Source: Corynebacterium sp. | GTDB taxonomy: Bacteria > Actinomycetota > Actinomycetes > Mycobacteriales > Mycobacteriaceae | Reading direction: 5' to 3' | DNA length: 64,000 bases | Assembly (NCBI RefSeq): GCF_030532965.1 | Contig: NZ_JAUNKC010000011.1 | Location: 21,977-85,976, forward strand | Shown here: positions 2 through 63,519 of the stretch, piece by piece | Layout: each line of letters opens with the position of its first letter | How positions within the stretch are numbered: position 1 is the stretch's first letter | Notes under the pieces: generated by a model | The model's database searches: none | Seen by the model: the letters and a program-made list of their open reading frames with translations, nothing else | What the model was told of the DNA's origin: nothing | Made by a program: the position numbers and the translations under genes

Positions 2-562
2 GCGGAGTGGGCTGTTAGCCAATTAAAGCGCCGATATAGGGGCGAACCGTTGGTTGTGGTTGATATGTGCACCGGCTCCGGGGCCATCGCGGCGTATATC
101 GCGACCGAGCTTTTCGACGCCAACCTGCCCGCGGCAATCCACGCCGTCGAGATATCGCCAGAGGCGGCGGCTTATGCGAAAACCAATCTGGAACGATGGC
201 AGGTTGAGGTGATTATCGGTGATGCCGGTGACATCGCGACCTATCCGCCTGAGCTGATTGGTCAGGCGGATTTGGTGATCAGCAACCCGCCATACGTTCC
301 GGAAACTTTGGAACTCGACCCGGAGGTGTATCACGATCCACATATGGCCGTGTTCGCCGGAACGACCGGGATGACGGTGATTCCCCGCCTGGCGGGGGTC
401 GTCGACAAGCTATGTGCCCCGGGTGGGTTGACCGCAATTGAACACGATGACACCACGCAGCCCGCCGTTATTGATTGCCTGGCGGAATACGGGTTTGCAC
501 AGGTTGTTGGCCATAATGACTTCGCTGGGCGACCCCGATTTGTCACAGCGACTAAGCTATAA
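2..562 (+). CDS. prmC: peptide chain release factor N5-glutamine methyltransferase, 5' truncated
   Basis: C-terminal part of the enzyme that methylates the glutamine of the GGQ motif in release factors RF1 and RF2 using S-adenosylmethionine. The frame is open from base 2, so the N-terminal helical domain and start lie outside the window. Visible are SAM-binding motif I (VVVDMCTGSGAIA) and the catalytic NPPY motif at bases 284-295, followed by the conserved YVPETLELDPEV region. The next gene, a tRNA threonylcarbamoyladenosine enzyme, follows after a 44-base gap; this pairing is common in bacteria. One copy of the dispersed motif described elsewhere lies inside the gene at 109-119 (minus orientation), where it encodes LFDA. 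Confidence 0.95.
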   Translation, partial: AEWAVSQLKRRYRGEPLVVVDMCTGSGAIAAYIATELFDANLPAAIHAVEISPEAAAYAKTNLERWQVEVIIGDAGDIATYPPELIGQADLVISNPPYVPETLELDPEVYHDPHMAVFAGTTGMTVIPRLAGVVDKLCAPGGLTAIEHDDTTQPAVIDCLAEYGFAQVVGHNDFAGRPRFVTATKL

Positions 563-606
563 CCGCATCTCGCAATAATCGCGACCACATGGAGGAAGAT
601 TAAACC

Positions 607-1257
607 GTGAGCAGAATCTACGACTGCGCCAACGCTGACACTCGTGCTGCCGGAATTAAACAAGCCGTTTCGGCGGTCACATCTGGTCGTCTGGTCGTTC
701 TGCCAACCGATACCCTTTACGGACTCGGCTGCGATGCTTTCGACAACGACGCGGTGAATCGACTGTTAAATACCAAACAACGTGGACCGGACATGCCAGT
801 GCCTGTCCTGGTCGGAAGCTGGGAGACCGCACGCGGTCTTGTTCATTCCTATGACCAGCAACTTCGTACTCTCATTGAGGCGTTTTGGCCTGGCGCACTC
901 AGCATCGTGGTGCCGCAAGCACCATCGCTGATGTGGAATCTCGGCGATACCAATGGCACTGTCATGCTGCGGATGCCGCTGCATCCGGTCGCCATCGAAC
1001 TCCTACGGGAGACTGGCCCTATGGCCGTGTCGAGTGCCAATATCTCGGGCCAACCACCAGCAACGACCGCGGCGATGGCGAAACAACAGTTAGGAACTGC
1101 AGTCAACGTCTACCTTGATGGCGGCGAATGCGCAGAAGGAGTCGCCTCGTCAATCATCGACCTTTCGGGGCCTCAGCCTCGACTGCTGCGGGAGGGAGCT
1201 ATCTCCGCAGATCGTATCGCTAGTGTGTTGAAGGTAACCCCAGAAAGCCTGAAATAA
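607..1257 (+). CDS. L-threonylcarbamoyladenylate synthase (Sua5/YrdC/YwlC family)
   Basis: Makes threonylcarbamoyl-AMP from threonine, bicarbonate and ATP, the first step of the t6A37 modification of ANN-decoding tRNAs; cytosolic. The 216-residue protein is a single YrdC domain without the extra C-terminal Sua5 domain. Family signatures seen are PTDTLYGLGCDA near residue 34, the KQRG loop, and SANISGQPP near residue 142. The GTG start at 607 is preceded by GGAGGA at 591-596. The stop codon directly abuts the ATG of the next gene, so the two are probably one transcript. Confidence 0.94.
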   Translation: MSRIYDCANADTRAAGIKQAVSAVTSGRLVVLPTDTLYGLGCDAFDNDAVNRLLNTKQRGPDMPVPVLVGSWETARGLVHSYDQQLRTLIEAFWPGALSIVVPQAPSLMWNLGDTNGTVMLRMPLHPVAIELLRETGPMAVSSANISGQPPATTAAMAKQQLGTAVNVYLDGGECAEGVASSIIDLSGPQPRLLREGAISADRIASVLKVTPESLK

Positions 1258-2457
1258 ATGGGCACGGGGGTTGCGGGCGTCCCGCTGCGCGAATTAGGAC
1301 TTATAGTTCTGGTCGCTGCTGCGCTAACCTACCTCACCACTGGACTCGTGCGACACAGCATGGTTCGGTCTGGTCAGGTCGGAGAAATTCGGGAACGAGA
1401 CGTCCACTCGATTCCGAAACCACGGCTGGGTGGAGTCGCCATGTTTTCCGGCTTTGTCGGCGCAGTCTTTCTTGCCGACCAGCTTCCAGCCTTGACTCGG
1501 GGGTTTCAGCCGATAACGCCTGAGATGAATGCGGTGCTGTGGGGTGGTTTCGTCATTGTCATCGTCGGCGTTCTTGATGATCTTCTTGAGTTGGATGCGT
1601 TGACCAAAATAATCGGCCAAGTCCTCGGCGCTGTAGTCATGAGTTTATTGGGCCTTAATTGGACCCTGTTGTTCGTGCCCTTTGGCGGCGGAACCACGTT
1701 ATTGCTCGACCAATTCTGGTCGGTACTAATCACGGTGTTTTTCACGGTCACCTTGATTAACGCCATTAACTTCGTTGATGGGCTCGATGGCTTGGCCTCC
1801 GGGTTGGGAATGATCGCCGGTGGAGCAATTCTCATCTTCTCACTCACCATTTTGCACGACCAAGGCGGAATGGTTTCTGCCTATCCACCGGCAATCATCG
1901 CCGCCGCTTTGGTGGGGATTTGTGCGGGATTTTTACCCCATAACTTTGAGCCAGCTCGTATCTTCATGGGGGATTCTGGTTCGATGCTAATCGGCCTGCT
2001 TCTGGCGGCGGCATCTACATCCGCGAGCGGAAAGATCAATATGGGCTTATACGGTGCAGTGGATATGGTGGCGTTGATGTCGCCCATCATCGTTGTTTTT
2101 GCCGCCGTGTTTGTTCCATTGCTTGATCTATTCCTAGCCGTGGTGCGTCGATTAAAGAACGGTAAATCGCCGTTTAGCCCGGACAAGATGCATCTACATC
2201 ATAGGTTGCTGTCGTTGGGGCACACTCACCGGCGAGTGGTGCTCGTTTTGTACCTGTGGGTTTCGGTAGTGGCGTTCGGCGCGGTGAGCTTTTCTATCAT
2301 TCCGCCGACAGTGGCAACCGTAAGCTTTATCATCGCCATCGTCGTGGCGACCATCGTTACGAGCGGTCCGGTTCGACGCGCACGGGTAGAAAACCCGCCG
2401 CCGACGATGAAGGTGGTGCGGCACCGGCCGCCGCGAACGTCGAAAAGCGAATCGTAA
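1258..2457 (+). CDS. wecA: polyprenyl-phosphate GlcNAc-1-phosphate transferase (WecA/Rfe/MraY family)
   Basis: Integral membrane glycosyl-phosphate transferase. In Corynebacterineae this position carries the enzyme that transfers GlcNAc-1-phosphate to decaprenyl phosphate to start the arabinogalactan linker; that assignment is from family knowledge. The 399-residue protein has about eleven hydrophobic segments. Family motifs seen are the Asp-Asp pair in VGVLDDLLELD, NAINFVDGLDGLASG, FMGDSGSM and the HLHHRL histidine motif near residue 310. It starts immediately after the upstream stop codon. The tail is basic and ends in SKSES, where the dispersed motif CGTCGAAAAGC (2438-2448) is read as codons. 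Confidence 0.93.
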   Translation: MGTGVAGVPLRELGLIVLVAAALTYLTTGLVRHSMVRSGQVGEIRERDVHSIPKPRLGGVAMFSGFVGAVFLADQLPALTRGFQPITPEMNAVLWGGFVIVIVGVLDDLLELDALTKIIGQVLGAVVMSLLGLNWTLLFVPFGGGTTLLLDQFWSVLITVFFTVTLINAINFVDGLDGLASGLGMIAGGAILIFSLTILHDQGGMVSAYPPAIIAAALVGICAGFLPHNFEPARIFMGDSGSMLIGLLLAAASTSASGKINMGLYGAVDMVALMSPIIVVFAAVFVPLLDLFLAVVRRLKNGKSPFSPDKMHLHHRLLSLGHTHRRVVLVLYLWVSVVAFGAVSFSIIPPTVATVSFIIAIVVATIVTSGPVRRARVENPPPTMKVVRHRPPRTSKSES

Positions 2458-2504
2458 CTATAAGGTTTAGCCAAAGCTTTGGGGGTTGGGTAGAATCGCC
2501 CGGT

Positions 2505-3514: not shown

Positions 3515-3529
3515 CTGAGCGTTACAACT

Positions 3530-4321: not shown

Positions 4322-4398
4322 CCTAAGTGCATCCAATCGGATCACCAAGTCTTACACAAACCAAAACTCATAGCTCAACACATGCGTTGGGCAACTAG

Positions 4399-4662
<264 letters not shown>

Positions 4663-4692
4663 TACCCAACGACACACGAAAGCAAGAGATTC

Positions 4693-5262: not shown

Positions 5263-5267
5263 GCACC

Positions 5268-6147: not shown

Positions 6148-7776
6148 ATGGCGGAGCTTACGATCTCCTCCGATGAGATCCGTAGCGCGATTGCGAACTA
6201 CACCTCGAGCTACTCCGCGGAGGCCTCCCGTGAGGAGGTCGGCGTGGTCATTTCCACCGCTGATGGTATTGCCCAGGTATCTGGTCTTCCATCTGTAATG
6301 GCAAATGAGCTGCTCGAGTTCCCAGGCGGCGTTATCGGCGTCGCACAGAACCTTGACACCGACCGCGTCGGCGTCGTGGTCCTGGGTAACTACGAGACAC
6401 TTAAAGAAGGCGATGAAGTAAAGAGGACTGGCGACGTTCTCTCCATCCCGGTCGGCGACAAGTTCCTCGGCCGCGTCATCAACCCACTGGGTCAGCCTAT
6501 CGACGGCCTGGGTGCCATCGAAGCTGAAGAGGACCGTGTCCTCGAACTGCAGGCACCTTCCGTTCTGCAGCGCCAGCCAGTTGGTGAGCCAATGCAGACC
6601 GGCATCAAGGCTATTGACGCCATGACCCCAATTGGTCGTGGTCAGCGTCAGTTGATCATTGGTGACCGCAAGACCGGTAAGACCGCTGTCTGCATCGACA
6701 CCATCTTGAACCAAAAGGCAAACTGGGAAACCGGCGATAAGACCAAGCAGGTGCGCTGCATCTACGTGGCTATCGGCCAGAAGGGTTCCACCATTGCCGC
6801 AGTGCGTAAGACTTTAGAAGAGCACGGCGCGCTGGAATACACCACCATCGTTGCAGCTCCTGCATCCGATTCCGCTGGCTTCAAGTGGCTGGCACCGTTT
6901 GCCGGTGCAGCTTTGGGTCAGCACTGGATGTACCAGGGCTACCACGTGCTGGTGATTTACGATGATCTGACCAAGCAGGCTGAAGCTTACCGTGCTATCT
7001 CCCTGTTGCTGCGTCGTCCACCGGGCCGCGAGGCTTACCCAGGTGACGTCTTCTACCTGCATTCCCGCTTGTTGGAGCGTGCTGCAAAGCTTTCCGACGA
7101 CATGGGCGCAGGTTCCATGACCGCACTGCCGATCATCGAAACCAAGGCAAACGACGTTTCCGCCTTCATTCCTACCAACGTGATTTCTATTACCGATGGT
7201 CAGGTGTTCTTGGAGTCCGACCTGTTCAACCAGGGTGTCCGCCCAGCTATCAACGTTGGTGTATCGGTGTCCCGTGTTGGTGGTGCAGCTCAGACCAAGG
7301 GCATGAAGAAGGTTTCTGGTTCCTTGCGTTTGGATCTTGCTGCTTACCGCGACTTGGAAGCATTCGCAACGTTCGCTTCCGACCTCGACCCAGCCTCCAA
7401 GGCACAGCTCGACCGCGGCGCTCGCCTGGTCGAACTGCTCAAGCAGGCTGAAAACTCACCACAATCCGTCGAACACCAGATCATTTCCATCTGGCTTGCG
7501 GGTGAGGGCGAATTCGACAACGTTCCCGTCGAAGACATTCGCCGCTTCGAGGCAGAGCTGCACGACCACCTGCACTCATCTGCCCCAGAGGTGTATGAGC
7601 AAATCGCCGGTGGCGCCCAGCTCTCGGAAGAATCACAGAACACACTCATCGCTCAGACCGATGCTTTCAAGCGGTCCTTCCAGACCACCGATGGCACCCC
7701 GGTTATCAATGAGGCTGAGGTAGATGCCTTGCCTGCTGAGCAGGTCAAGAAACAAACGCTGACGGTCAAGAAGTAA
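6148..7776 (+). CDS. atpA: F-type ATP synthase subunit alpha
   Basis: Non-catalytic nucleotide-binding subunit of F1, 542 residues. The Walker A motif GDRKTGKT is at residues 172-179, with the conserved QMTPIG-like segment [10 protein letters not shown] before it and [14 protein letters not shown] further on. ATG at 6148 is preceded by GGAAGAAC. The C-terminus extends beyond the E. coli protein by about 25 residues, ending in a lysine-rich tail, as in other actinobacteria. Confidence 0.98.
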
Positions 7777-8808: not shown

Positions 8809-10254
<1,446 letters not shown>

Positions 10255-12103: not shown

Positions 12104-12388
12104 ATGGCGCGAAAGAATCGACGTCGGGAAGAGACCGCACGGACATTACCAGCAGATGGTGCCAGCTACCTAGGGGTTCGTGAGGTGATTGGTCCGAGCT
12201 GGACGAATGGCGCTACGTTCTTAGTCCGGCGGATTGGCAGCCATGCTGCGGTGAAATTTTACGTGTGCCCGGGGTGCAACCAGAATATTCCGCCGGGGAT
12301 TGCTCATGTGGTGGCTTGGCCGAAGGATTATGGCCGCGGTGCTGAGGACCGGAGGCATTGGCATTCGCCGTGTTGGGAGCGTCGATAA
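12104..12388 (+). CDS. small zinc-type protein coupled to nucS
   Basis: A 94-residue basic protein that begins directly after the nucS stop codon. The N-terminus is arginine rich (MARKNRRREE). The C-terminal half contains CPGCNQNIPPG and a His-Trp-His-X-X-Cys end, giving a CxxC plus later His and Cys that could bind zinc in a degenerate HNH-like arrangement. The family accompanies nucS in actinobacteria from memory; its function is not known to me. The T form of the dispersed motif (CGTCGATAAGC, 12380-12390) covers its stop codon. Confidence 0.8.
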   Translation: MARKNRRREETARTLPADGASYLGVREVIGPSWTNGATFLVRRIGSHAAVKFYVCPGCNQNIPPGIAHVVAWPKDYGRGAEDRRHWHSPCWERR

Positions 12389-12396
12389 GCACAACA

Positions 12397-13459: not shown

Positions 13460-14407
13460 GTGACTCTTCCTAATTCCACCCCTAACCGTTTCGTCGCTGG
13501 TGCCATCGATTTGGGAGAAGTAAAAGCCCGGGCAGAGGCGCGTGCCCAGGCAGAAGCGCAGGCCGCAGCGAAGAGCAGCGGTGCCGCTGGGGGTGGGGTA
13601 GAGCTCGTAGCAACATTAACGATGGAAAACGTCGAGGACGAGCTAATCAAACGTTCTGCCCAAGTGCCTGTCATTGTGTTGATTGGCACCCCGCGCAGCC
13701 CAGATTCAGAGCAATTACAAGCGGATTTTAGTGTATTGGCGAACAATGCTGGTGGTGCGTTCGTGTTTCGCTATATCGACGCCGATGCGACGCCGCAGGT
13801 AGCGCAGATGTTCGGAATATCAGGGCTGCCAACCGTTGTGGCTTTGGCGGCGGGACAACCGATCGCAAATTTTGAAGGCGGGCAACCGACAGCCGCGTTG
13901 CAGCAATGGACTGATGCCGTTGTTGCTGCCGTTGCTGGTCAGCTTCCGGGACTGCCCGCAGCAGCTGAGCCTTCCGACGGTTCGGAATCACCGGAGGATC
14001 CGCGTTTCGCTCCAGCGACGGAGATGCTAGGCGCTGGTGATTTTGCGGGAGCGATTGAGGTATACGAGTCGATCCTTGCACATGAACCGAAAAATGCCGA
14101 GGCACAAGCTGCGCGCGATAACGCCCGATTGCTATTGCGGCTGCAGCAGGCCGATCGCGATACCGATCCGATCGCAGCAGCGGATGCAGAACCGCACAAT
14201 ATCGAGCGGGTTTTCGCAGCAGCTGACGCCTTGATCGCAATGGGGGATGCGGAAGGAGCATTCGGGTGGCTGATTACAGCACTGACCCAGATTCCTGAGG
14301 AGAAGGCGCGCATTCGCGATAGATTATTGGAACTATTTGCGCTTTTCGACGCCGCCGACGCCCGCGTTCTCAAGGCCCGCGCGCAAATGGCAAACGCGCT
14401 GTTTTAG
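13460..14407 (+). CDS. CnoX/YbbN-like thioredoxin-fold protein with TPR region
   Basis: A 315-residue protein: an Ala/Glu-rich N-terminal helix, a thioredoxin-like domain (about residues 45-165) and a C-terminal tetratricopeptide-like region (about 175-315) beginning LGAGDFAGAIEVYESILAHEP. The architecture matches CnoX/YbbN, a chaperone partner of Hsp60 and elongation factors. The active-site position reads TPRSPDSE, so both redox cysteines are absent and it should not be an oxidoreductase. GTG at 13460 with AAAAGGA seven bases upstream is a better start than the TTG 18 bases earlier. The dispersed motif lies at 14341-14351. Confidence 0.85.
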   Translation: MTLPNSTPNRFVAGAIDLGEVKARAEARAQAEAQAAAKSSGAAGGGVELVATLTMENVEDELIKRSAQVPVIVLIGTPRSPDSEQLQADFSVLANNAGGAFVFRYIDADATPQVAQMFGISGLPTVVALAAGQPIANFEGGQPTAALQQWTDAVVAAVAGQLPGLPAAAEPSDGSESPEDPRFAPATEMLGAGDFAGAIEVYESILAHEPKNAEAQAARDNARLLLRLQQADRDTDPIAAADAEPHNIERVFAAADALIAMGDAEGAFGWLITALTQIPEEKARIRDRLLELFALFDAADARVLKARAQMANALF

Positions 14408-14418: not shown

Positions 14419-16008
14419 ATGCGTAAGTATTTACAGACTGTAGCGGTAGTAACCGCAGTTGCAACAAGTGCTTCGTTATTGACTGCCTGCTCGGTGTTTG
14501 AACCGGACATTGATCCGTGTGTTGTCCAGGTTAATGGTGAAGAACCGGAGGCGCGCGTTACGCCAGGAATGACTCGTGATGCGGCGGGCTTCCGAATTTT
14601 GAAGATGATCTCTTCCGGCTTGGTGCATTTAGACACCGATAATAATGTCGCTATGGATCTGGCTAAATCGATCGAAAAGACGTCACCAACGACATATGTC
14701 GTTGAGCTACGACCAGGTTTAAAGTTCTCTGACGGTTCTCGCATTACTTCCCGTAGCTTCGTCGATTCGTGGAATTTTATTGTCGCTACTGACGAATTGA
14801 ATGCGGAGTTTTTCCAGCCTATCGCAGGCTTTGCGGAAAAAACGCCGTCGATGCGGGGGTTGACCGTAACGAGCGACACTCGTTTCACGATCGAATTGTC
14901 ACAGCCCACACCGGATTTCCTGATGCAATTAAGCCACCCGGTTTTTGCCGCGCAGCCAGCATCTGCGCTTTCGGCGGATCAGAAATTCACTCTCACTCCG
15001 GTTAGTAGTGGGCCTTACGTGGTCGAGACATGGGTGCGCAATCAATCGCTTAAACTGCGAGTGAATCCGGAGTATACCGGCCCCCGTAAGCCCGAGAACG
15101 ATGGGGTGACAATGAGTTTCTTCATCGGTCGAAAACTACCGTTCGAAGAATTGCAACGCGGCACCCTCGATGTTTTCGATAGCGTCAATGGTTCTGATAT
15201 CAAACAAGCGCACAAGGAGTTTGAATTCTATAACAAGCCTGGCGCTGCTGTTTTGGAGCTCAGCATTCATTCCGAAACTCCGCATTTTCAGGGGACGGAA
15301 GGAAAATTGCGTCGTGAAGCGATTTCCTTGAGCATCGATCGGGACAAGATTGCCAAAGAAACATTGAAAGGTACGTTCGTGCCTGCGTATTCATTCGTGC
15401 CCCCGGGAATCCCAGGTGTGGACGAATCGATCGGGGTGAAAAGTTACGACCCGGAGCGCGCCCGTGAACTGTGGGCACAAGCGGATTTGATAAATCCCTT
15501 TGATTTCGAAGTTCCGGTGCATTACAACTGGGATTCTGGGGACAATCGTGCATGGGGGCCGGAGGTTGCGCAGCAACTCAAGAAAACCTTGGGCATTAAT
15601 GCGTTCCCGGAACCGGGTTCGGACCATGCCAGGTTCAGGTATGACTACCATGACGTCCGGTTTAATGGCGTATATCGCACCGGTTGGCGTGCTGATTTCC
15701 CATCCATTCGTAATTATTTGGAAAATAACTACGCTTCTGATGGGGTATCGAACGACACCAAGTATTCGAACCCGCACGTTGATGAACTGCTTAAACAAGC
15801 TGATGCTGCGCAGTCTGAAGAAGAAGCGATGGCTTTGTACAACAAGGCGCACGAGCTTATTGTCGCTGACCTCCCGGCCATTCCGTTCTTATATCCGGCA
15901 GTCACTGCCGCTTGGACTTCCAGAGTCTCCGATGTCGGTTTTGGCTTTGACACTTTGCCGGAATACCACCACATTAAAATCGATGATAATCGATGTAAGA
16001 AATCGTAG
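14419..16008 (+). CDS. peptide/nickel-type ABC transporter substrate-binding lipoprotein
   Basis: A 529-residue extracytoplasmic solute-binding protein of family 5 (DppA/OppA-like). It has a lipoprotein signal with lipobox LTAC (Cys at about residue 23) and the family pattern ADL..KTSPTTYVVELRPGLKFSDGS, then RREAISLSIDRDKIA. Permease and ATPase genes are not adjacent, so it is either an orphan or served by a distant transporter. The start is 11 bases after the CnoX-like gene, so they may be co-transcribed. Substrate is unknown. Confidence 0.88.
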   Translation: MRKYLQTVAVVTAVATSASLLTACSVFEPDIDPCVVQVNGEEPEARVTPGMTRDAAGFRILKMISSGLVHLDTDNNVAMDLAKSIEKTSPTTYVVELRPGLKFSDGSRITSRSFVDSWNFIVATDELNAEFFQPIAGFAEKTPSMRGLTVTSDTRFTIELSQPTPDFLMQLSHPVFAAQPASALSADQKFTLTPVSSGPYVVETWVRNQSLKLRVNPEYTGPRKPENDGVTMSFFIGRKLPFEELQRGTLDVFDSVNGSDIKQAHKEFEFYNKPGAAVLELSIHSETPHFQGTEGKLRREAISLSIDRDKIAKETLKGTFVPAYSFVPPGIPGVDESIGVKSYDPERARELWAQADLINPFDFEVPVHYNWDSGDNRAWGPEVAQQLKKTLGINAFPEPGSDHARFRYDYHDVRFNGVYRTGWRADFPSIRNYLENNYASDGVSNDTKYSNPHVDELLKQADAAQSEEEAMALYNKAHELIVADLPAIPFLYPAVTAAWTSRVSDVGFGFDTLPEYHHIKIDDNRCKKS

Positions 16009-18434: not shown

Positions 18435-18445
18435 CGTCGACAAGC
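18435..18445 (+). repeat. dispersed 11-mer, copy between two terminators
   Basis: CGTCGACAAGC, C form, extended match GGCGTCGACAAGCAAAA. It lies exactly between the adhesin terminator and the glgB terminator, outside any coding frame. Confidence 0.8.
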
Positions 18446-18495: not shown

Positions 18496-20700
18496 TTAGC
18501 CTTCCCAGCGGTAGAACTGGGCGCTCATAGCCGGGATGTGTAGGGTGATGGAATGCTGGTATCCATCCCAACCAGTATCCCACGCGGCGACTTCTTGTTC
18601 TAACAGGTTATTGGCACCTTCGTAGACGCCGGCGTCGGTGTTGAGAATGCACTTCCACATGCCAGACTCTGGAACGCCGAACTTGTAGTTCGGGTGGCTT
18701 GATCCACCGAAGTTAAATACACACAGGATCTTGGAATCGTCGGAACCGTAGCGGACGAAAGACAAGACGTTGTTTTCCGCATCGTCGGACTTGGTCCAGC
18801 TGAAACCCTCTGGGTTATTGTCGATGGTGTAGAGCGCAGGTGACTGGGCGTACAGCGCATTGAGGTCCTTGACCAGTTGCGAGATACCGACGTGGTATTC
18901 ACCTTCCCAGCCGACCATATCGTCCCAGTCGATGCTGCGGGCCTCGCTCCATTCCATGATCTGGCCGAACTCCTGACCTTGGAATAGCAACTTCTTGCCG
19001 GGGTGGGCGTACATGTAGGCGTAGAGGGCACGCAGGCCCGCGGCCTTGTTCCACACATCGCCAGGCATCCGATCCCACAAGGAACCCTTACCGTGAACCA
19101 CTTCGTCGTGGCTAAACGGCAAGCAGTAGTTCTCGGAATAGGCGTACACCATCGAGAACGTGATGTCGTTGTGGTGGTAGCACCGGTGAATCGGGTCTTT
19201 GGAGAAGTACACCAGGGTGTCGTTCATCCACCCCATATTCCATTTCAGATTGAATCCCAAGCCATTGAAATCGGTGGGGCTGGTAACACCCGGCCAAGAG
19301 GTCGATTCCTCGGCGATGGTGAGCACACCCTGGTGCAGTTTGTGTACCGTGGCGTTCATCTCCTGGAGGAACTGCACAGCCTCCAGGTTTTCCCGGCCGC
19401 CGTATTGGTTTGGCAGCCATTCGCCTTCCTTGCGGGAATAGTCCAGATACAGCATGGACGCTACTGCGTCGACGCGAAGGCCGTCGATGTGGAACTCCTC
19501 CAGCCAATACAACGCGTTTGCCACGAGGAAATTGCGTACTTCGTTGCGACCGAAGTCAAAGACGTAGGTACCCCAGTCCATCTGCTCGCCGCGACGCCAA
19601 TCCGGGTGTTCGTACACGGCTTGGCCGTCGAAGCGGCCAAGGGCGAAGTCGTCCTTGGGGAAGTGGGCGGGAACCCAGTCCATGATGACGCCGATGCCTT
19701 CGGCGTGGAAGGCGTCGATAAGCTGGCGCAGTTCGTCGGGGCTGCCCCACCTTGCAGTGGGGGCGTAGTAGCCCGATACTTGGTAACCCCACGATCCACC
19801 GAAGGGGTGCTCGGCAATCGGCATGAACTCCACGTGGGTGTAGCCCATGTCCTTGACGTATGCGACCAATTCGGTCGCGAGTTCTTTGTAACCTAGCCCT
19901 TGACGCCAGGAACCCAAATGCACTTCGTAGATGCTGATCGGCTTGCTTAGATGATCGGTTTCGGCGCGAGTTGCCAACCACTGGTTGTCGTTCCATTCGT
20001 AGGTGGAGGTGGTGACGATGGAGCCGGTTCGTGGTGGCTCTTCGGTGCGGCGGGCCATCGGGTCGGCCTTGTCTAAGCGCCAGCCTTCTTGGGTGTGGAT
20101 GGCGAATTTATAAACGTCACCATCGCCAACACCCGGGATGAAGATTTCCCAGACCCCGGATTCGCCGAGGCTGCGCATCGGGTATTGGTTGGGGTTCCAG
20201 CCGCAGAAGTCGCCGATAACGGCAACACCCGCCGCGTTAGGTGCCCAGACGGCGAAACTTGTTCCGGAAACCGGGCCGAAGTTTTCGGTTTCGATCTCGC
20301 GAACGTGTGCGCCAAGCACTTCCCACAGTCGTTCGTGGCGACCTTCCCGGATCAGGTGAATATCAAGTTCACCGAGCGTAGGTAGGAAGAAATAAGGATC
20401 GAAGGTGTCAGTAACTGCATCGTTGTCCCAGGTGATGCGGAGACCGTAGCCGCCGCCCGAGCCGCCTTTTTTGATGTACAACCCAAAAATATCATCGCCC
20501 AACGGCTCCATCTCCCGGGTTTTACCGCATTTGGCCACCAATTCGACTTTCTTGGCACCGATCTGGCGGGTGCGAACTATCGCGTCGCCGTTGTCGAGCG
20601 GGTGCCATCCGTAGACGGAATGGGGGTCGTGGTGGCGGCATTGGGTGAGCAGCGTGCGGTCGTGATTGTCGATGTGCAGTGTTTCTGATGAGCTGGACAT
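18496..20700 (-). CDS. glgB: 1,4-alpha-glucan branching enzyme
   Basis: Introduces alpha-1,6 branches in glycogen or in the alpha-glucan of the GlgE pathway; cytosolic. The 734-residue GH13 enzyme has an N-terminal carbohydrate-binding module (residues 100-200, with [22 protein letters not shown]) and the catalytic barrel: nucleophile Asp in [11 protein letters not shown], acid Glu in [12 protein letters not shown], transition-state Asp in [16 protein letters not shown] precedes the ATG. It follows glgE on the same strand after about 220 bases, so both act on the same polymer. Confidence 0.97.
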
Positions 20701-20923
20701 ATCTGTAGTTTCCTTACACTTTTAGTCGGTAACCATCCGGCGACGTTTGTGGTGCGAAATACACCGACATTTCTCACATTTCACGCTACCGGAGGGGGAG
20801 GGGCTGAACGAATACATATATGTCGACCTTAGGGCGTTTGTGCTTGTCGACGCCCCACGGTGTGACATATAAGACGTTTGTGTTGGTTTTCGGCGGTGCT
20901 GTGTTATGGAGCAACCACAGACC
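20701..20923 (-). other. glgE-glgB spacer with short repeats
   Basis: The spacer carries three copies of a GTTTGTG element: GACGTTTGTG at 20742-20751, GGCGTTTGTG at 20833-20842 and GACGTTTGTG at 20873-20882. A dispersed motif copy (20842-20852) touches the middle one. The length allows a separate glgB promoter, but none is clear. Confidence 0.45.
20842..20852 (-). repeat. dispersed 11-mer in the glgE-glgB spacer
   Basis: CGTCGACAAGC on the minus strand, C form, with flanking GGGG before and ACAAA after. Confidence 0.75.
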
Positions 20924-24159: not shown

Positions 24160-24170
24160 CGTCGAAAAGC
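24160..24170 (+). repeat. dispersed 11-mer after the orphan ABC gene
   Basis: CGTCGAAAAGC, A form, preceded by GGCGG, 30 bases after the stop codon of the ABC ATPase and outside any supported gene. Confidence 0.75.
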
Positions 24171-40941: not shown

Positions 40942-40952
40942 GCTTTTCGACG
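40942..40952 (-). repeat. dispersed 11-mer after gatA
   Basis: CGTCGAAAAGC on the minus strand, A form, extended by AAAAA. It lies between the gatA terminator and the stop codon of the minus-strand SUKH gene, in noncoding DNA. Confidence 0.8.
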
Positions 40953-43682: not shown

Positions 43683-44602
43683 GCGTCCCAACCACAGCGG
43701 GTGTTATTCAGTGGGCCACGGAAATCGCTACCTACTGTGCTTCGCTTTTCGACGCCCGGCTAAGCCCCACCGCCACCGGGTTCCGCGACGTGGTGTCACG
43801 TCGGCTCGACCAACAACCGCCACAACCACCTAGTGTCGATACAGTTTTTCCGGCCCCTAATTCTGTCCCGGTAACAACCACCGATGATTATTTTTACCAA
43901 CTAAAACTTTCAATCTACGACCTCGAACGTGAGGTGACACAACGCCCCACATCTGAACGTCAATTGCGCCTTATAGAACTATATGACGACCTTGGGTGGC
44001 AGAGCGTGGCTGGCTGCGCGGTATTAGAACTGGCCAGAACAACCACCAATCCGATTGAGCAGTTTTCGCTTATGGAACGCGCCTATGGAATATTTTGATA
44101 ACGCGGAGCGACTCCAACCAGTAGGTCTTTCGGCCGAATTGGCGCGGCTCGGGCGTGAGATCGCCACCACCGGCGAATGCCGTTACCTGGCGTGTGCGTT
44201 GCTTACCCAAGCGTCATCATTGACCTATTACACGGACACTGAAATGCCAGCGATTATGGCAGTAATCGACGAAGCAGCTGCAGCTGCCGCCACTATCGAC
44301 GATGGTTCTTTTCCGCCAGAGCGATTTTTGCAGATGAAAGCATCCGTTGCACTTGCGTGTGACGCCCCACATCGGCTTTCCGATTCCATGACCACGCAAT
44401 CGCGGAACTGGCGGCGAAAGACCAGTGGGATGACGCGGTTGAATTAGCAATTCGGGTAGCGACTTCACGTGACATCGATGAACACAAAATCATCGCACTA
44501 TTAACCCACTTTCGCGATAATCCAGACCTGCCCGATATACGGTTATACGGCCGCCTCGCGGGTGCAATCGAGGATATAATTGCTGGTTATGGCGATACGT
44601 GA
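43679..44602 (+). pseudogene. frameshifted gene for an alpha-helical repeat protein
   Basis: Coding appears in three segments of alternating frame. The first runs from GTG 43679 to a stop at 44098, the second is open in another frame from about 44085 to 44447, and the third returns to the first frame from about 44363 to the stop at 44602. The junctions read smoothly: MERAYGIF joins DNAERLQPVG at a TTTT run (44092-44095), and DAPHRLSDS joins HDHAIAELAAK near 44385. The third segment has no start codon. It therefore looks like one decayed gene of about 300 codons, or two base-calling errors. A dispersed motif copy is inside at 43744-43754. Confidence 0.7.
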
Positions 44603-45643: not shown

Positions 45644-45763
45644 CGTGCACAACGTACAAAGGCGTACACCGAGCTAGCGTCGTCTGATGCGGCGAAATCC
45701 CTGTGTCTTGATGCGATGCGAATTACTGGACTTGCCCTGCTTTTCGACGCCCATGTCGCGTAG
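45644..45763 (+). pseudogene. possible 3' gene relic ending in LLFDAHVA
   Basis: A 39-codon open stretch without a start, SSDAAKSLCLDAMRITGLALLFDAHVA, ends at a TAG at 45761. It reads as a helical protein terminus and may be the remnant of another gene of the helical family. The dispersed motif (45739-45749) lies in its last codons. The surrounding 45495-45764 otherwise holds nothing I can support. Confidence 0.3.
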
Positions 45764-47036: not shown

Positions 47037-47047
47037 CGTCGAAAAGC
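47037..47047 (+). repeat. dispersed 11-mer before the TPR gene
   Basis: CGTCGAAAAGC, A form, in the 270-base noncoding stretch between the small membrane gene and the next gene; followed by AAAGG. This gap (46908-47178) also has an AACAAC/GTTGTT inverted repeat near 46960-46980. Confidence 0.75.
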
Positions 47048-48585: not shown

Positions 48586-49153
48586 TAGGTCTGACTGGGT
48601 GCAACTAGGTCTTGAAAACCTTGCACACAGTGGCCCAAGTGGAATCACGATTGATGCGTTGTGCCGGAGTGTGGGCAAAACAAAGGGTTCTTTTTATTCG
48701 CATTTCACTGCAATTACAGATTTCAATGCGGCATTAGCGGAATTGTGGCAGCACGAAAACACCGCGTTAATCATTGATGCCGCTGCGCGGGTGCCAACCG
48801 GGAAGCGTCGACAAGCGTTAGACGCGTGGGCGCTTGAGTTAAACCACGACTTGGAACGCAACATGCGGCAATTAAGTTTTACGGATGCACATGTTGCAGC
48901 TGTGGTTACGGAGGTTGACGATCACAGAATTGCGTTGTTGGCCAAAAACTTCGTGGAAGTGGACCGGTTTTCCCAAGCAGACGCGTTAGCGCTAGCCCGC
49001 TTCGAGTACGGATTCTATGTTGCATATCAAGCTGGGTTGAGGCTGACACAGGACCAGTTCGACGACAGCTACCAGAGATTTCTTAAACTCGTCAAGTGCG
49101 GAAACGGCGAGATTGCAGGCAACGCGGCTACGTCGAAAAGCACAGAGATTTAA
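48563..49153 (+). CDS. TetR family transcriptional regulator
   Basis: A 196-residue regulator. The N-terminal helix-turn-helix is GITIDALCRSVGKTKGSFYSHF at about residues 28-48 and is typical of TetR. The C-terminal half is a ligand-binding helical bundle. Ligand unknown. It overlaps the membrane protein gene upstream, its probable target. Dispersed motif copies lie inside (48806-48816) and at the last codons (49131-49141). Confidence 0.88.
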   Translation: MAPKKRFSRSDWVQLGLENLAHSGPSGITIDALCRSVGKTKGSFYSHFTAITDFNAALAELWQHENTALIIDAAARVPTGKRRQALDAWALELNHDLERNMRQLSFTDAHVAAVVTEVDDHRIALLAKNFVEVDRFSQADALALARFEYGFYVAYQAGLRLTQDQFDDSYQRFLKLVKCGNGEIAGNAATSKSTEI

Positions 49154-50690: not shown

Positions 50691-51014
50691 CGTCCCTTCC
50701 TTTCTGGTTACTCGCGGGTTTAAAGTGTGCTCGATGCACAATTAAAAACTACTAGTGCAATATGGCAACAACGGCAAGGGCTTTACCCCCGGTGTGTGCC
50801 AGGTGTTTTTCGCTTGTCGACGCGCGCAACATGTGCGGCAACTGGGGATATGCGGCGAAAAACATGAATGTGAGGGAAGTGAAAATTTGGGGCGACAAGG
50901 GGTAATTTTTGCGGCCAGTTGGATGCTGAGGAAAGCATGACCAACTGCGGTGGCTAACCCCAAAAGGTGGTGTTGCGACCTGGGGCGGGTGGGGCGATGG
51001 TAATGTTTTTAACG
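50691..51014. other. noncoding region between the small gene and the riboswitch
   Basis: About 320 bases holding a dispersed motif copy at 50812-50822 but no supported gene. The promoters of the small gene (minus strand) and of the riboswitch transcript (plus strand) should lie here. Confidence 0.45.
50812..50822 (-). repeat. dispersed 11-mer upstream of the riboswitch
   Basis: CGTCGACAAGC on the minus strand, C form, flanked by CGCG and AAAAAC. It is in noncoding DNA. Confidence 0.8.
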
Positions 51015-55932: not shown

Positions 55933-57009
55933 ATGCGTATGAAAAAGGCAGTAGCCGCTATCGCGTTATCATCAGTTGTACTTTCCGCTTGCTCCGACAA
56001 TGGCAGCTCTACCGCTACCTCCGCTAGTGGCGAGGCCGGTGCCGCAGGTGGCATCACCATTGAAAACTGCGGGCAAGAAGTAACCTATGAGGCCACCGAC
56101 GACTTGTTCGTCAACGATGGCAATATCATTTCCATCGCGCTGGCTGCCGGTGCCAAGGACAATATCAAGTACGTGTCCTCGGTTCAGCGCGACATGGATA
56201 TTCTCAAGGCGAAGTACGGCGCGGACGTCGAAAAGCTTAACGACGTCGCCAAAGAATACCCATCGCTGGAAGAAGTCGTATCCAAGCAACCCGATGTCTT
56301 CGTCGCTGGCTGGAACTACGGTTTCAACGAGGGTAAGAACCTCACCCCGGACACCTTGAAGGAACAAGGAATCGGTTCTTACATTCTCACCGAGTCGTGC
56401 CGCCAGGAAGGCACCGACAAGCGGGGAATCGTCGACCCATGGGAAGCCGTAGAGATCGACGTGAATAACCTCGGCACCATGACCGGCAACGAGGACACCG
56501 CCCAGAAAGTTGTTGCGGATCAGCAGGCACGTCTGGCCAAGCTCAAGGAAGCGCAACAGCCGGAGAAAGCCCCAGTCGCCTTCGTCTTCGACTCCGCCTC
56601 TGACACCATTTTCACCTCGGGTAGCTTTGGCGCACCGGAGGCAATCATCACGGCCGCCGGTGCCAAGAACGCCGCAAGCGACATCAAAGACACCTGGACC
56701 ACCGTTGGTTGGGAACACCTGACGGCGAACACCCCGGATGTTTTCGTGTTCGTGGAATACCCCGGCCAGGAGTTTGATGAAAAGGTGAAGATTCTCAAGG
56801 AACACCCAACCACCAAGGATCTGCCAGCGGTCAAGGAAAACCGGTTCATCAACCTGCCATACGCTATGTGGACCTCCGGGCCGCTGAACATTGACGCCGC
56901 TGAGCACGTGCGTAAAGGTTTGGAGAAGTTCGGTTTGGCACCAGAATCGGATATCAAACCGCAGCTGGAATTGCCGGAATCCGTTCCTGGCAAAGAGTAT
57001 TTCCAGTAA
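55933..57009 (+). CDS. iron/siderophore-type substrate-binding lipoprotein
   Basis: A 358-residue periplasmic-binding (TroA-like helical backbone) lipoprotein with lipobox LSACS (Cys at about 20). The family motif EYPSLEEVVSKQPDVFVAG is clear, followed by GSFGAPEAIITAAGAKN. Cargo is a siderophore, haem or a corrinoid, not resolved by sequence. AAGGAG precedes ATG 55933; the frame opens earlier at 55885. It completes a three-gene importer. Confidence 0.92.
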   Translation: MRMKKAVAAIALSSVVLSACSDNGSSTATSASGEAGAAGGITIENCGQEVTYEATDDLFVNDGNIISIALAAGAKDNIKYVSSVQRDMDILKAKYGADVEKLNDVAKEYPSLEEVVSKQPDVFVAGWNYGFNEGKNLTPDTLKEQGIGSYILTESCRQEGTDKRGIVDPWEAVEIDVNNLGTMTGNEDTAQKVVADQQARLAKLKEAQQPEKAPVAFVFDSASDTIFTSGSFGAPEAIITAAGAKNAASDIKDTWTTVGWEHLTANTPDVFVFVEYPGQEFDEKVKILKEHPTTKDLPAVKENRFINLPYAMWTSGPLNIDAAEHVRKGLEKFGLAPESDIKPQLELPESVPGKEYFQ

Positions 57010-59805: not shown

Positions 59806-60971
59806 GCGTCGACAAGCGAAAACTACCAGCACTAGAACAACTGCGCAAGGGGGAGCGGCTGCTTATCGACGCCCCCACCATGCCCGAAACCACGCCCGCG
59901 CGACAGGCTCTCGCTGCTGCGTTTGACTTGTGGGGACGATGCGAAAACACCGCTGCGCTGGAAACTACCGCTAAGGCCGCACGCCTTGCAGAAGACGACC
60001 CGGCGGCAAAAATGCAGGCAGCGCTGCTGCGGGCGTTGATTACATTCGACGATGACCTTACTGCCTGTGCGGCTGCCGCCGATGAATGCTTCGACCTGGC
60101 AGAGGCGCATGATCTGCCGCAGGTGCAAGCCCAGGCACAATACGTCAGCGCCAGGGTGCACCGGTTCGCAGGCCAACGTACAGGCGCCCCGGAACTTGTG
60201 TGCGAGGCGATCACCATCTGCGAGGAGGCGCTGGAAACACTTAGGGGGAAAACGGATTGCTTCGACCTGGAAGCAGAATTCATTGAGGCCTATCAAGACA
60301 TAGACCCACACGCTGCCGCAACGTATGCCACCACACTTGCCGAGACGGCAACAACGAATGAGCACAAACAGCGCGCCTTCTTCCTAGCAAGCTGGGCATT
60401 TCTTGCGGCAGGGGACGCGCAACGTGCCTTAGGTGCTGCGGATGAACTCGCTGCCGTGGCCCGCACTAGCCTTTATACAGCGCCGCTAGACCGGCAACGC
60501 GAAGCCGCCGAAGAACTGTATTCCTGCCTTGAACACGCAGCGACCATGCGGCGATTCCTCCCCGCGCCCATTGCCGATGCGGAGTTTCACACGGCCATGC
60601 GGCTTATCGATGAAGCCGAAACCATAACCCAGAGCTACCTCATTGACGAGGATTTCTCCGCAACACACTGGCAGCGAACCACCGCCACCACGCGGGGCGA
60701 TCTCAGTTGTCGACTGGGTCGTTACGACGAAGGCATGGCCATGCTTGCCGACGCCGAAGCCGCCGCGATCGCCGCCGACTGCTACCAAGAAGCCAGCCGA
60801 ATCAACACCATCATGCGTGATTACGCGAAATTACACGACAAACCGGCAACAGTACGAGCACTGGCGAAACGAACATTAAACTACATGTGCCATGGGGGCG
60901 AATGCCACGATGACGCATTTTGGGAAACCACCCAGGCGGAAGCCGCCGCTGATTTATCATGGTCTGCGTGA
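59802..60971 (+). CDS. helical-repeat protein, first of a cluster
   Basis: A 389-residue, alpha-helical protein with many Ala/Glu/Asp residues and TPR-like spacing (LAAAFDLWGRCENTAALETTAK; FLASWAFLAAGDAQRALGAAD). No catalytic motif is seen. It starts with GTG overlapping the MFS stop. Its opening codons overlay a dispersed motif copy (59807-59817). The C-terminal 13 bases overlap the next gene. Protein-protein scaffold or sensor roles are possible; none is established. Confidence 0.7.
   Translation: MSVDKRKLPALEQLRKGERLLIDAPTMPETTPARQALAAAFDLWGRCENTAALETTAKAARLAEDDPAAKMQAALLRALITFDDDLTACAAAADECFDLAEAHDLPQVQAQAQYVSARVHRFAGQRTGAPELVCEAITICEEALETLRGKTDCFDLEAEFIEAYQDIDPHAAATYATTLAETATTNEHKQRAFFLASWAFLAAGDAQRALGAADELAAVARTSLYTAPLDRQREAAEELYSCLEHAATMRRFLPAPIADAEFHTAMRLIDEAETITQSYLIDEDFSATHWQRTTATTRGDLSCRLGRYDEGMAMLADAEAAAIAADCYQEASRINTIMRDYAKLHDKPATVRALAKRTLNYMCHGGECHDDAFWETTQAEAAADLSWSA
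59807..59817 (+). repeat. dispersed 11-mer at the start of the helical-repeat cluster
   Basis: CGTCGACAAGC, C form, sits at codons 2-6 of the first helical-repeat gene, four bases after the MFS stop; flanked by AGCG and GAAAA. Confidence 0.7.
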
Positions 60972-62287
60972 CCGATGCGATAAGTGGTAGTGAACTGCGG
61001 TGCGACCCGACAGAATCCCTTCCCACTTCAACGCAATTGCGCGCCGGGATGGATACCTACGACCACCGCGGCGAAGCTGTCGGTACGGATGCCGGACGTC
61101 AAGCGGCGTATCAATTATGGTCGGTCAGCGAAAAAGTGACGGAGTGGCAGGAGATCGAATCGCTGATAAACCGAACACTAGCGTGCGAAACCACCGACCC
61201 GTTGGGGGTTCAAGCCCACTGTTTCGACATTGCGCTATCAACAACCGGCGATACTGACGATTACTACCAGTGGTGGGATACACACAACCGCAACTGCATT
61301 GATTTTGCCCGCAACCACCAGTTGTGGCGGCTGTATTGCCAGGCCGTGGCGAAGCGGATCGAACGCGAAAATGATCGCATCTACCGCTATGCCACCGGCA
61401 GTACCAGCATTGATCGTGAGGAAATCTTCGCCCGTCAACGCGACATAATAGACTTCGGTGAGGCGGCATTAGCAACCGCTCCAAGCAATGCTGGATACAT
61501 TTTTCATTCACTCATTGGGGTCTACCAGTCCTTTGGTGGTAAGCCTGCGCAACGTGCAATCATTGATCGGTGGATTGCTACGGCGAGTGATTCACGGGAG
61601 CTTTACGAGGCCTATTTTTGGGGATTTCTCCACACTGAACCAGATGCGTGTTGGCCATACGCACGTCACGCGGTTGAAATTGCGGAACAGATCGTGCACA
61701 CCGCTAAACCCGATGACCTTCACGACGCCGCGATGATGCTGTGGGATTGCCACCGGGAAGTGGCAACCAAGAATTGGTTCAACGCTCAGCTACCGGAAAA
61801 TATGGTGCAAAAATCACTTAGACATTTCGATAAATCAATTACGGTGATTACCACTTATCTCGCCAGTTCAGAAGGGCACCTGAGTATGCTGGTGGGCTCT
61901 TATATAGAGCGTGGGGATTTCTGTAAGCAGCATCACCGATACAGTGCCGCGCGGCGAAATTACCGTACAGCGGTGCGGCTTTCGGAAGAGTACGCCCAGG
62001 TCATGGCTGGAAACGCTTTAGATGAACACGAATCGTTGAACCTCATAGACGCGTGGCTAAAAATCGCTTACATTGACAAACACCGGAACAAACCACAGCT
62101 CGTGGCCCACACCCGCGACGTTGTTGACGCACTCATCAACACACTACCTATAGATGAAGAACTACTACCGTTCTACCGTGACAAGCTTGAAGAACTATCG
62201 CAATGGTGCGACCAGCACCAATACCCGGCCAAGCGGCCGCGACCACGACAACCACGGCGCACGAAACACCGGAAAACGAAGAGATAA
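60959..62287 (+). CDS. helical-repeat protein, second of the cluster
   Basis: A 442-residue protein. Its N-terminal region TQLRAGMDTYDHRGEAVGTD is matched closely by the last gene of the window, EQLRAGLELFDQRGEAVGSD, showing paralogy. The middle and C-terminus are alpha-helical, with TPR-like stretches (RRNYRTAVRLSEEYAQVMAG) and a basic end RRTKHRKTKR. It overlaps the preceding gene by 13 bases. Function unknown. Confidence 0.72.
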   Translation: MVCVTDAISGSELRCDPTESLPTSTQLRAGMDTYDHRGEAVGTDAGRQAAYQLWSVSEKVTEWQEIESLINRTLACETTDPLGVQAHCFDIALSTTGDTDDYYQWWDTHNRNCIDFARNHQLWRLYCQAVAKRIERENDRIYRYATGSTSIDREEIFARQRDIIDFGEAALATAPSNAGYIFHSLIGVYQSFGGKPAQRAIIDRWIATASDSRELYEAYFWGFLHTEPDACWPYARHAVEIAEQIVHTAKPDDLHDAAMMLWDCHREVATKNWFNAQLPENMVQKSLRHFDKSITVITTYLASSEGHLSMLVGSYIERGDFCKQHHRYSAARRNYRTAVRLSEEYAQVMAGNALDEHESLNLIDAWLKIAYIDKHRNKPQLVAHTRDVVDALINTLPIDEELLPFYRDKLEELSQWCDQHQYPAKRPRPRQPRRTKHRKTKR

Positions 62288-62301
62288 GAAAGGCTAAGTG
62301 C

Positions 62302-63519
62302 ATGGGAATCCCGTCCAGCGCGGCGCTAGCAGCCGGTGTGCAGCTTTTCGACGAACACGCCGTATCAGTCATCACCGATATACCTGCCACGAACCTGGCA
62401 CAGATACACGCCGCAGGCGCAGATGTCAGCGACGACTGGTCCGAACTGGCAGGGACTTACGCACACAAGACTAACGATCCAACGTCGATTTATCTGCACT
62501 GGTTACTTGTGGTTTTCTCATCCCGCCACGCCGACCGGGTGTTCGACACACCTGAAGAAGTAGCAACCGAATTAGTGCGAATCGCGCGGGACGAGTCGCT
62601 GCCGCACATCAGTGTTCAGCTGGCGGTGGCGTATACCAAAGACGCAATTAGCCTGCTAGGCCGCAATACAAAAACCTGGTTGAGCGACGTGCTTTGGTGG
62701 GGCGACGCAATTTCGCAGGCGCTTTCCCCATACGCCGATATAACCGCAGTGCAGGTTAACCTCATGGAAACCCGGTGGCGAGTAGCATCCATGGAACCGA
62801 ATCCGAAACCGTACATCATGACGTGCCTGTCGGATTTAAGGGATTTCGCCAGAAAAATAACCGATATACAGCAACAATTCGAAGCCTACAAAACACTGGC
62901 TATCCTCGCCGACATGGAAAAGCGAACTCGACTGAGCCAGACAAGCGCCAACGCCGCGTTCGGGATAGCATTTAACCTGTATAACCGGAGTGAAAGCGAT
63001 ACAGACAAAGCAAAAGCCGCCGAAGTAGTGTGGGATTACGCACGCGAATACCTAGACATGCGTTGTTTCCAACCGCTAACCCCTTCCGCCACTTTCGATC
63101 ACACCACGCACATATTCCGTAAAGCATACGAAACAGCGTTACGCCATCTCGTGCCCGCGACATACTCCGCAACCGAACTTCAGGCACACTATGCCAACGA
63201 CATGGCAAGCTTCCATGCCAGCCACCGCCGGTGGACATCCGCCGCCCGTTGGTATAAAACCGCCGCACAACTATTTGCCGCCTGCGGCGATACGCGTGGA
63301 ATCGCCCGTGCGAAAACCGAGCTCATGCTCATCAAACGCAAAGATGGCATCGTAGCTGAAGCGGAAAAACTAGCCGCCGAAGTGCTGGAGATCCTCACAA
63401 TCAGAAACAACCAACGCCACTGGGGCTATGATCTGGCCATAACAACGCAAGCCTGGTGCCGCACAAAGCGGCGGAAGAAACGGGCGGCGAGTGGGCGTCG
63501 AAAAGCAAAGTCCTATTAA
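62302..63519 (+). CDS. helical-repeat protein, third of the cluster
   Basis: A 405-residue protein, alpha-helical, with TPR-like segments (HYANDMASFHASHRRWTSAA; WYKTAAQLFAACGDTRGIA). ATG 62302 with GAAAGG upstream is chosen; the frame opens at 62203 inside the previous gene. The basic tail RRKKRAASGRRKAKSY ends with a dispersed motif copy (63496-63506), and another lies near codons 14-17 (62343-62353). Function unknown. Confidence 0.7.
   Translation: MGIPSSAALAAGVQLFDEHAVSVITDIPATNLAQIHAAGADVSDDWSELAGTYAHKTNDPTSIYLHWLLVVFSSRHADRVFDTPEEVATELVRIARDESLPHISVQLAVAYTKDAISLLGRNTKTWLSDVLWWGDAISQALSPYADITAVQVNLMETRWRVASMEPNPKPYIMTCLSDLRDFARKITDIQQQFEAYKTLAILADMEKRTRLSQTSANAAFGIAFNLYNRSESDTDKAKAAEVVWDYAREYLDMRCFQPLTPSATFDHTTHIFRKAYETALRHLVPATYSATELQAHYANDMASFHASHRRWTSAARWYKTAAQLFAACGDTRGIARAKTELMLIKRKDGIVAEAEKLAAEVLEILTIRNNQRHWGYDLAITTQAWCRTKRRKKRAASGRRKAKSY

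Follow-up and report, generated by a model that had tools for sequence, protein, structure and literature searches.

DNA-uptake sequences, the tags by which self-DNA is recognised in transformation, have previously been described from two Gram-negative families, the Neisseriaceae and the Pasteurellaceae. Here we report on a short motif, CRTCG-NN-AAGC, that recurs in a 64-kb stretch of a Corynebacterium sp. genome (contig NZ_JAUNKC010000011.1; hereafter the window) and elsewhere in the same genome. We consider it quite likely that the motif is a self-DNA tag of this kind, serving a transformation system of Tad pilus, ComEA and ComEC, and analogous to the DNA uptake sequence (DUS) of Neisseria and the uptake signal sequence (USS) of Haemophilus.

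The DUS of the Neisseriaceae, whose receptor is ComP, is GCCGTCTGAA; it is reported to have a conserved core, in which CTG is essential, and dialects that follow the phylogeny (PMC3630211). The corynebacterial motif resembles it as a short non-palindromic word in very many copies, with a core, dialects and a type IV-filament transformation system (PMC3630211, PMC6370729). It does not belong to the same sequence family, as its core, CRTCGNNAAGC, lacks the CTG. Furthermore, it occurs in another phylum, the pilus is of the Tad/Flp type instead of type IVa, and transformation is something that we infer here.

The motif resembles the Pasteurellaceae USS (AAGTGCGGT) in copy number, given for the USS as about 1,300 (PMC5217627) or 1,471 (PMC1939737), and in lacking an orientation bias. 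Known uptake sequences are reported to be non-palindromic and free of orientation bias, with 65% of the copies in open reading frames (ORFs) in H. influenzae and about 10% in inverted repeats, and to be commoner in noncoding DNA than expected (PMC1939737). The two sequences are unrelated, and both phylum and pilus differ. The USS is flanked by AT-rich tracts, whereas the upstream flanks of the motif described here are G-biased.

In Micrococcus luteus, Tad, ComEA/ComEC and a prepilin peptidase encoded outside the tad loci are needed for transformation (PMC4322843), and a comparable gene set, here known by homology, is present in Corynebacterium. M. luteus needs two tad loci, whereas Corynebacterium has one T2SSE match per genome over the cut-off among the matches listed. 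The terms "uptake sequence" and "Corynebacterium" are absent from the main text of the M. luteus report (PMC4322843).

Enrichment and definition of the motif

The initial annotation described the motif as CGTCGA[AC]AAGC and listed 21 exact copies in the window, all of which were recovered where it had placed them. One further copy, at 400 on the plus strand, had been overlooked, so that the window holds 22 copies, 12 on the plus strand rather than 11 and 10 on the minus strand, against about 0.2 expected. Under an order-3 Markov model of the window about 0.09 copies are expected for each form, while 13 of the A form and 9 of the C form were found; among the 11-mers with at least four occurrences, CGTCGAAAAGC and its reverse complement are the most deviant under this model. 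With the T and G forms counted in, the window contains 30 CGTCGANAAGC, and it contains 37 CGTCGNNAAGC against 2 CATCGNNAAGC. The whole genome of the window (G000; 3.21 Mb in 59 contigs) contains 1,351 CGTCGANAAGC (707 forward, 644 reverse) against 30 for a reversed control (13 and 17), a count nowhere near chance expectation.

The tolerance of the motif is sharp. In a 442-kb sample of G000, made up of the window and 20 further stretches and containing 176 core copies, words with one base substituted occur only 0–10 times for nine of the ten fixed positions. The exception is base 6, where A gives 176 copies, T 37, G 29 and C 6, so the A that had been assumed there can also be T or G, which leaves CGTCG..AAGC fixed; base 7 may be any base but is preferentially A. 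The core is nearly identical in G009, a complete chromosome of 2.28 Mb sampled as 20 stretches of 20 kb with 144 copies, where base 7 prefers T and bases 8 and 9 are slightly more tolerant (at most 19 copies vs 144). Bases 6 and 7 are both free in several species, giving the general G-form CGTCG-NN-AAGC. The element is thus broader than first claimed: bases 6 and 7 are loose, base 2 sets one of two dialects (G or A, described below), and the element in full reads CRTCG-NN-AAGC, with flanks biased to G. The flanks are similar across the three samples (G000, G009 and an A-dialect sample), with G at -5 and -2 and C avoided at +11; position -1 is often G, but not in G009. An extended form ending in AAGCRAA, proposed earlier, stands in part, the flanks actually being biased towards G at positions -5, -2 and -1 and away from C at +11.

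The motif might be a by-product of codon and peptide usage, L-[FLIV]-D and V-[DE]-K being the peptides that would have to recur. Genic copies do lie preferentially in a single antisense frame (59 of 125 in G000, 90 of 130 in G009), and this frame encodes L-[FLIV]-D. However, synonymous shuffles that keep the amino acid, the first base of the codon and the first base of the next codon account for only 6.1 +/- 2.4 of the 125 genic copies in G000, 14.1 of the 130 in G009 and 2.7 of the 44 in the A-dialect sample. The looser forms in G000 also exceed this codon null (CGTCGG 28 vs 2.6; CGTCGT 32 vs 2.1), 50 of the 176 G000 copies are intergenic, and the count stays below 60 in 67 of 242 congeners. 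The recurrent LFDA and VDK codons to which the initial annotation had drawn attention do not, therefore, explain the copies; on the strength of the shuffling we reject a codon artefact, to which we assign a negligible probability.

Nine of the 22 window copies lie between genes according to a simple gene caller whose exact gene starts are uncertain; the earlier count was seven. The features of the window are given below.

109..119, minus strand, CGTCGAAAAGC copy
400..410, plus strand, CGTCGACAAGC copy, overlooked at first
2438..2448, plus strand, CGTCGAAAAGC copy, gene end 19 bp further on
7089..7099, minus strand, CGTCGGAAAGC variant with G at base 6, such variants being above the codon null
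12380..12390, plus strand, CGTCGATAAGC copy, intergenic
14341..14351, minus strand, CGTCGAAAAGC copy
15310..15320, plus strand, CGTCGTGAAGC variant
18435..18445, plus strand, CGTCGACAAGC copy, intergenic
19713..19723, plus strand, CGTCGATAAGC copy
20842..20852, minus strand, CGTCGACAAGC copy, intergenic
21943..21953, plus strand, CGTCGGCAAGC variant
22362..22372, minus strand, CGTCGAGAAGC copy
23814..23824, minus strand, CGTCGAGAAGC copy
24000..24010, minus strand, CGTCGATAAGC copy
24160..24170, plus strand, CGTCGAAAAGC copy, intergenic
28210..28220, minus strand, CGTCGGCAAGC variant
29350..29360, minus strand, CGTCGATAAGC copy
31265..31275, plus strand, CGTCGACAAGC copy, at a gene end
32097..32107, minus strand, CGTCGACAAGC copy, intergenic per the simple gene caller, within a longer ORF in the ORF list
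34245..34255, minus strand, CGTCGAAAAGC copy
38355..38365, plus strand, CGTCGATAAGC copy
40212..40222, plus strand, CGTCGTAAAGC variant
40942..40952, minus strand, CGTCGAAAAGC copy, intergenic
43488..43498, plus strand, CGTCGACAAGC copy
43744..43754, minus strand, CGTCGAAAAGC copy, intergenic per the simple gene caller
45739..45749, minus strand, CGTCGAAAAGC copy, intergenic
47037..47047, plus strand, CGTCGAAAAGC copy, intergenic
48806..48816, plus strand, CGTCGACAAGC copy
49131..49141, plus strand, CGTCGAAAAGC copy, gene end 22 bp further on
50812..50822, minus strand, CGTCGACAAGC copy, intergenic per the simple gene caller, within a short ORF in the ORF list
56226..56236, plus strand, CGTCGAAAAGC copy, overlapping the inverted variant at 56235
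56235..56245, minus strand, CGTCGTTAAGC variant, inverted, overlapping the copy at 56226
59807..59817, plus strand, CGTCGACAAGC copy, at a gene end, inverted pair with 59861
59861..59871, minus strand, CGTCGATAAGC copy, inverted pair with 59807
60743..60753, minus strand, CGTCGGCAAGC variant
62343..62353, minus strand, CGTCGAAAAGC copy
63496..63506, plus strand, CGTCGAAAAGC copy, gene end 23 bp further on

Two dialects within the genus

Related genomes, in which the initial annotation had suggested looking, share the motif. At least 60 CGTCGANAAGC are found in 175 of the 242 Corynebacterium genomes and at least 150 in 160, the maximum being 1,533, and 67 genomes fall below 60; control counts across the set range from 3 to 36. 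A search across the order covered 249 genomes from 68 genera, three of the genomes being Corynebacterium, and none of the 246 sampled genomes from other genera was comparably rich, the top count there being 150 in 7.4 Mb (control 35).

The form with A at base 2, CATCGNCAAGC, was searched in 80 genomes. It is present in 307–754 copies in 14 of them (controls 0–11), in 57–115 copies in four and in 9–44 copies in the remaining 62. Thirteen of the 14 rich genomes hold fewer than 60 CGTCGANAAGC, the other one, G024, holding 117. Sampled counts of CGTCGNNAAGC and CATCGNNAAGC are 211 and 5 in G000 and 200 and 10 in G009, as opposed to 0 and 30 in G107, 3 and 24 in G001 and 0 and 21 in G097, and changing base 2 of the A form from A to G leaves 1 copy vs 68. 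The G and A dialects are nearly exclusive within a genome and share their flanks. Twenty genomes behind named records, many of which probably overlap with the genome set above, were counted with both patterns; they include the following, given with their numbers of CGTCGANAAGC and CATCGNCAAGC.

C. haemomassiliense, 791 and 19
C. pilosum, 879 and 44
C. bouchesdurhonense, 805 and 9
C. urinipleomorphum, 826 and 14
C. lemuris, 621 and 33
C. aurimucosum DE0410, 532 and 36
C. alimapuense, 311 and 17
C. pseudodiphtheriticum, 303 and 21
C. mastitidis, 104 and 23
C. phoceense, 21 and 330
sp. KPL1814, 30 and 600
sp. J010B-136, 40 and 558
sp. ACRPO, 270 and 58
sp. zg-331, 59 and 15

The dialects follow the phylogeny, with several losses and the mixed genomes G024 and ACRPO. 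On a LigA tree of 40 genomes carrying one label each (G, A or none), 10 changes are needed against 18.7 after the labels are shuffled; a single, well-supported clade unites six signal-less genomes, and more signal-less rows are found elsewhere. The A-dialect genome G107 is located beside G054 on this tree. In contrast, aroC, aroE, aroK and mltG (named by eye; 12 genomes) give a split with 100% ultrafast bootstrap that has G107 with the A rows on one side and G054 with the G rows on the other. G028, at 57 A-form copies, groups on the G side, and when LigA is added, G107 and G054 come together against the rest with a support of 56. LigA is therefore the odd one for G107. A TadA tree agrees with the four genes on the position of this genome. 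The conflict between LigA and TadA had seemed to support horizontal co-transfer of tad with the dialect, an idea that was abandoned with LigA as the outlier. In another TadA tree two genomes of the G dialect, those of sp. ACRPO and C. aurimucosum, branch from within the A-dialect rows, so the dialect would have switched more than once or reversed. Alignments and trees of the Tad minor pilins gave no dialect-specific candidate beyond phylogeny, the residue differences between the dialects being confounded with it.

Orientation, spacing and mobile DNA

Chi and KOPS (FtsK-orienting polar sequences) are 5–8 bp long and biased to the leading strand. A Chi-like recombination hotspot or a KOPS/FtsK-type polar sequence, the former among the options of the initial annotation, would also be a short and frequent chromosomal word, and the high count and small length of the motif suit such a role. 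However, the replication orientation bias is missing. Forward and reverse copies of CGTCG[ATG]NAAGC number 42/40 and 58/52 in the two halves of G009 (20 stretches of 20 kb; Fisher p = 0.88), and relative to GC skew, with stretches of skew <0.01 left out, they number 93/80 in G000 (173 of 176 copies; p = 0.36) and 45/47 in G009 (92 of 144). This strand symmetry makes a Chi or KOPS role highly improbable.

The other option put forward, a chromosome-organising or nucleoid-protein site, would have an intracellular protein sit on copies about every 2–2.5 kb and compact, space or segregate the chromosome. The absence of strand bias is consistent with this, as is the arrangement in G000: the gaps in three contiguous blocks have a coefficient of variation of 0.73 where random placement gives 0.97 (with a fraction of 0.0015 as low), 18 full 20-kb stretches have a mean of 7.7 copies and a variance of 2.4 (p = 0.003), and neighbours face in opposite directions in 96 of 155 cases (p = 0.002; 74 of 126 in G009, p = 0.03). 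Even spacing is not decisive, as it has been reported for the uptake sequences of H. influenzae too (Karlin et al., cited in PMC1939737), although uptake sequences are described as less even than compaction signals should be (PMC1939737, elsewhere). Against such a site stand the uneven spacing in G009, the bipartite, non-palindromic form, whose dialect switch of a single base is fixed at hundreds of sites, the fall of the motif to background in several Corynebacterium lineages, and the absence of rich genomes among the 246 sampled outside the genus. A chromosome-organising role fits less well and we regard it as unlikely, if with some small chance of being right.

The gene context in G000 resembles the profile of known uptake sequences. 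The 50 intergenic copies compare with 28 expected by area (p = 2e-5; simple gene caller), and the density in convergent intergenes, 2.06 copies per kb, exceeds that in divergent (0.51) and tandem (0.57) intergenes. Seven pairs less than 100 bp apart are inverted and none are on the same strand. In this sample 71% of the copies are genic and 14 of 176 lie in close inverted pairs, next to the H. influenzae proportions quoted above (PMC1939737). The resemblance is partial in G009, with one inverted and one same-strand pair, and in the A-dialect sample, with one same-strand pair; the inverted pairs near gene ends seen in G000 are not found in these two samples. The enrichment at gene ends that the initial annotation had proposed to check thus holds in G000, and the intergenic excess is confined to it among the three samples.

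The motif is scarce in recently acquired mobile DNA. A phage portal match was found in nine of 71 CGTCGANAAGC-rich genomes, eight of them above the cut-off, and the nine prophage regions, each taken as one 19-kb stretch around the portal gene, contain 10 copies where host density predicts 52.4 (Poisson 9e-13). Three C. glutamicum phages, 156.7 kb in total, hold 2 copies; their host may carry either dialect or none. Two of the 20 G009 stretches are without CGTCGANAAGC, and one of these is rich in transposase- or integrase-like genes, as judged by eye. Some other mark of self linked to transfer or defence, such as a packaging signal of a gene-transfer agent or of vesicles, or protection from a nuclease that spares self, would share this self-versus-foreign pattern and the depletion in prophage and phage DNA. 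No candidate gene for it was found, although no genome-wide search was made, and genes of an uptake route are present instead; we hold such a mark to be improbable.

Transformation genes and the case for DNA uptake

A ComEC match is present in 241 of 242 genomes, the T2SSE ATPase in 80 of 80, HHH_3 in 76 of 76 and a prepilin peptidase in 75 of 76. The frame that holds the top HHH_3 match is in most cases as long as LigA. A further match, of ComEA type, lies at most 2 kb from comEC in five compared genomes (G001, G004, G009, G043 and G059), and in G022 the distance to comEC is about 8 kb. The tad loci were read in 20 genomes and have a largely conserved gene order. In G000 the tad proteins match Ssd/CpaE-type, TadA, two T2SSF and a Flp-like DUF4244 protein, together with the Rv3654c-type TadE-like family and, at a score under the curated cut-off, TadE. 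By homology, the hosts appear to possess a transformation machine, which makes uptake possible but does not prove it.

The motif shares with known uptake sequences a high count relative to the codon null, equal orientations (in the samples of two genomes), scarcity in mobile DNA, dialects that follow phylogeny and a machinery recognised by homology. Uptake, the first of the three roles named in the initial annotation, fits most of the tests run. We infer uptake itself, its receptor and active competence in these species, and propose the following mechanism. Double-stranded DNA with (G..GG)CRTCG-NN-AAGC would be preferred by a receptor at the cell surface, for which a minor pilin or some other extracellular component of the Tad/Flp pilus is the likeliest candidate. 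Tagged DNA would be brought in by pilus retraction and ComEA/ComEC and inserted by homologous recombination. Through preferential import tagged alleles would displace untagged ones, and the tag would build up in recombining DNA and not in phages or insertion sequence islands. A shift of receptor preference at base 2, from G to A, could then give rise to a new dialect.

Several observations weigh against an uptake function. Competence genes are equally common in signal-less genomes, and their presence does not predict the signal; as these genes are nearly universal, presence or absence of com and tad was dropped as a predictor. G129, which is A-rich, is the sole genome of 76 without a Peptidase_A24 match, and its one listed HHH_3 match lies in a long LigA-like frame; part of its competence machinery may have been lost recently while the tag persists. 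Dialect exclusivity has exceptions (117 CGTCGANAAGC and 487 CATCGNCAAGC in G024, besides the counts for sp. ACRPO above), and among the trees built no protein tracks the dialect better than ordinary genes. The arrangement of the copies varies as well: G009 is over-dispersed (mean 7.2, variance 18.4), neighbours in the A-dialect sample do not alternate in strand (20 of 40), and intergenic copies are not in excess outside G000, numbering 13 of 144 in G009, where about 21 would be expected, and 4 of 48 in the A-dialect sample, where the expectation is about 8. Finally, any signal that builds up slowly in a host genome should likewise be depleted in mobile DNA.

Corynebacterium has a mycolate outer membrane. 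We think it probable that the uptake of tagged self-DNA has arisen independently outside the Gram-negative families, that the tag is read by the Tad pilus, that the G and A dialects act as a mating barrier and that most of the species are transformable now or were so recently. If this is true, self-recognition in transformation arose at least once more and with a different pilus, natural transformation is predicted for many Corynebacterium species, harmless ones among them, and the tag would distinguish native from imported DNA in these genomes. Furthermore, the two dialects and the signal-less relatives offer a natural comparison for finding the receptor. Among the papers listed from the open-licence literature we found no report of an uptake sequence or of this motif in Corynebacterium, though reports elsewhere are possible; in the literature searched no uptake tag was found for this phylum and no report of natural transformation in Corynebacterium stood out. 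The motif string gave apparent chance matches in primers among the matches listed, and a survey of spaced motifs that included Corynebacterium reported pairs related to CRISPR (clustered regularly interspaced short palindromic repeats) there (PMC5217627).

Some further features of the tad loci were observed. Five signal-less genomes (loci L091, L092, L100, L103 and L106) have a single TadB/C-like gene of about 360–380 aa, whereas signal-bearing loci mostly have two of about 150–295 aa; in the TadA of these five genomes the T2SSE match is also shorter and weaker. This combination was rejected as a marker of signal loss, because all five fall in one signal-less LigA clade and the link is explicable by phylogeny alone; the signal-bearing loci of G129 and G027 also show one TadB/C-like gene, according to the gene calls. 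Helicase-like (about 780 aa), cold-shock-like and topA-like genes, named by eye, adjoin tad in most of the 20 loci, including that of G000 (contig C31, locus L087), and the helicase may be part of an uptake or repair module.

Other words are over-represented near some of the loci examined. In G012 (loci L073 and L074), which is without either dialect, TGACGNCGCG occurs 26 times in 40 kb against 1.6 expected and is possibly a third, unrelated tag. Words like GTACGNCGA, CGTACGCCG and TCGGCGTAC recur above expectation in 15–21 kb around tad in Marmoricola, Nocardioides and other actinobacteria (L192, L195, L199, L204 and L206), and are perhaps a separate signal in Nocardioidaceae and relatives. 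Long over-represented words in G018 (L051, L052) and G029 (L075, L076), GGAGCACCCGG and AGGTGACNNTCA, are probably local repeats and not genome-wide signals.

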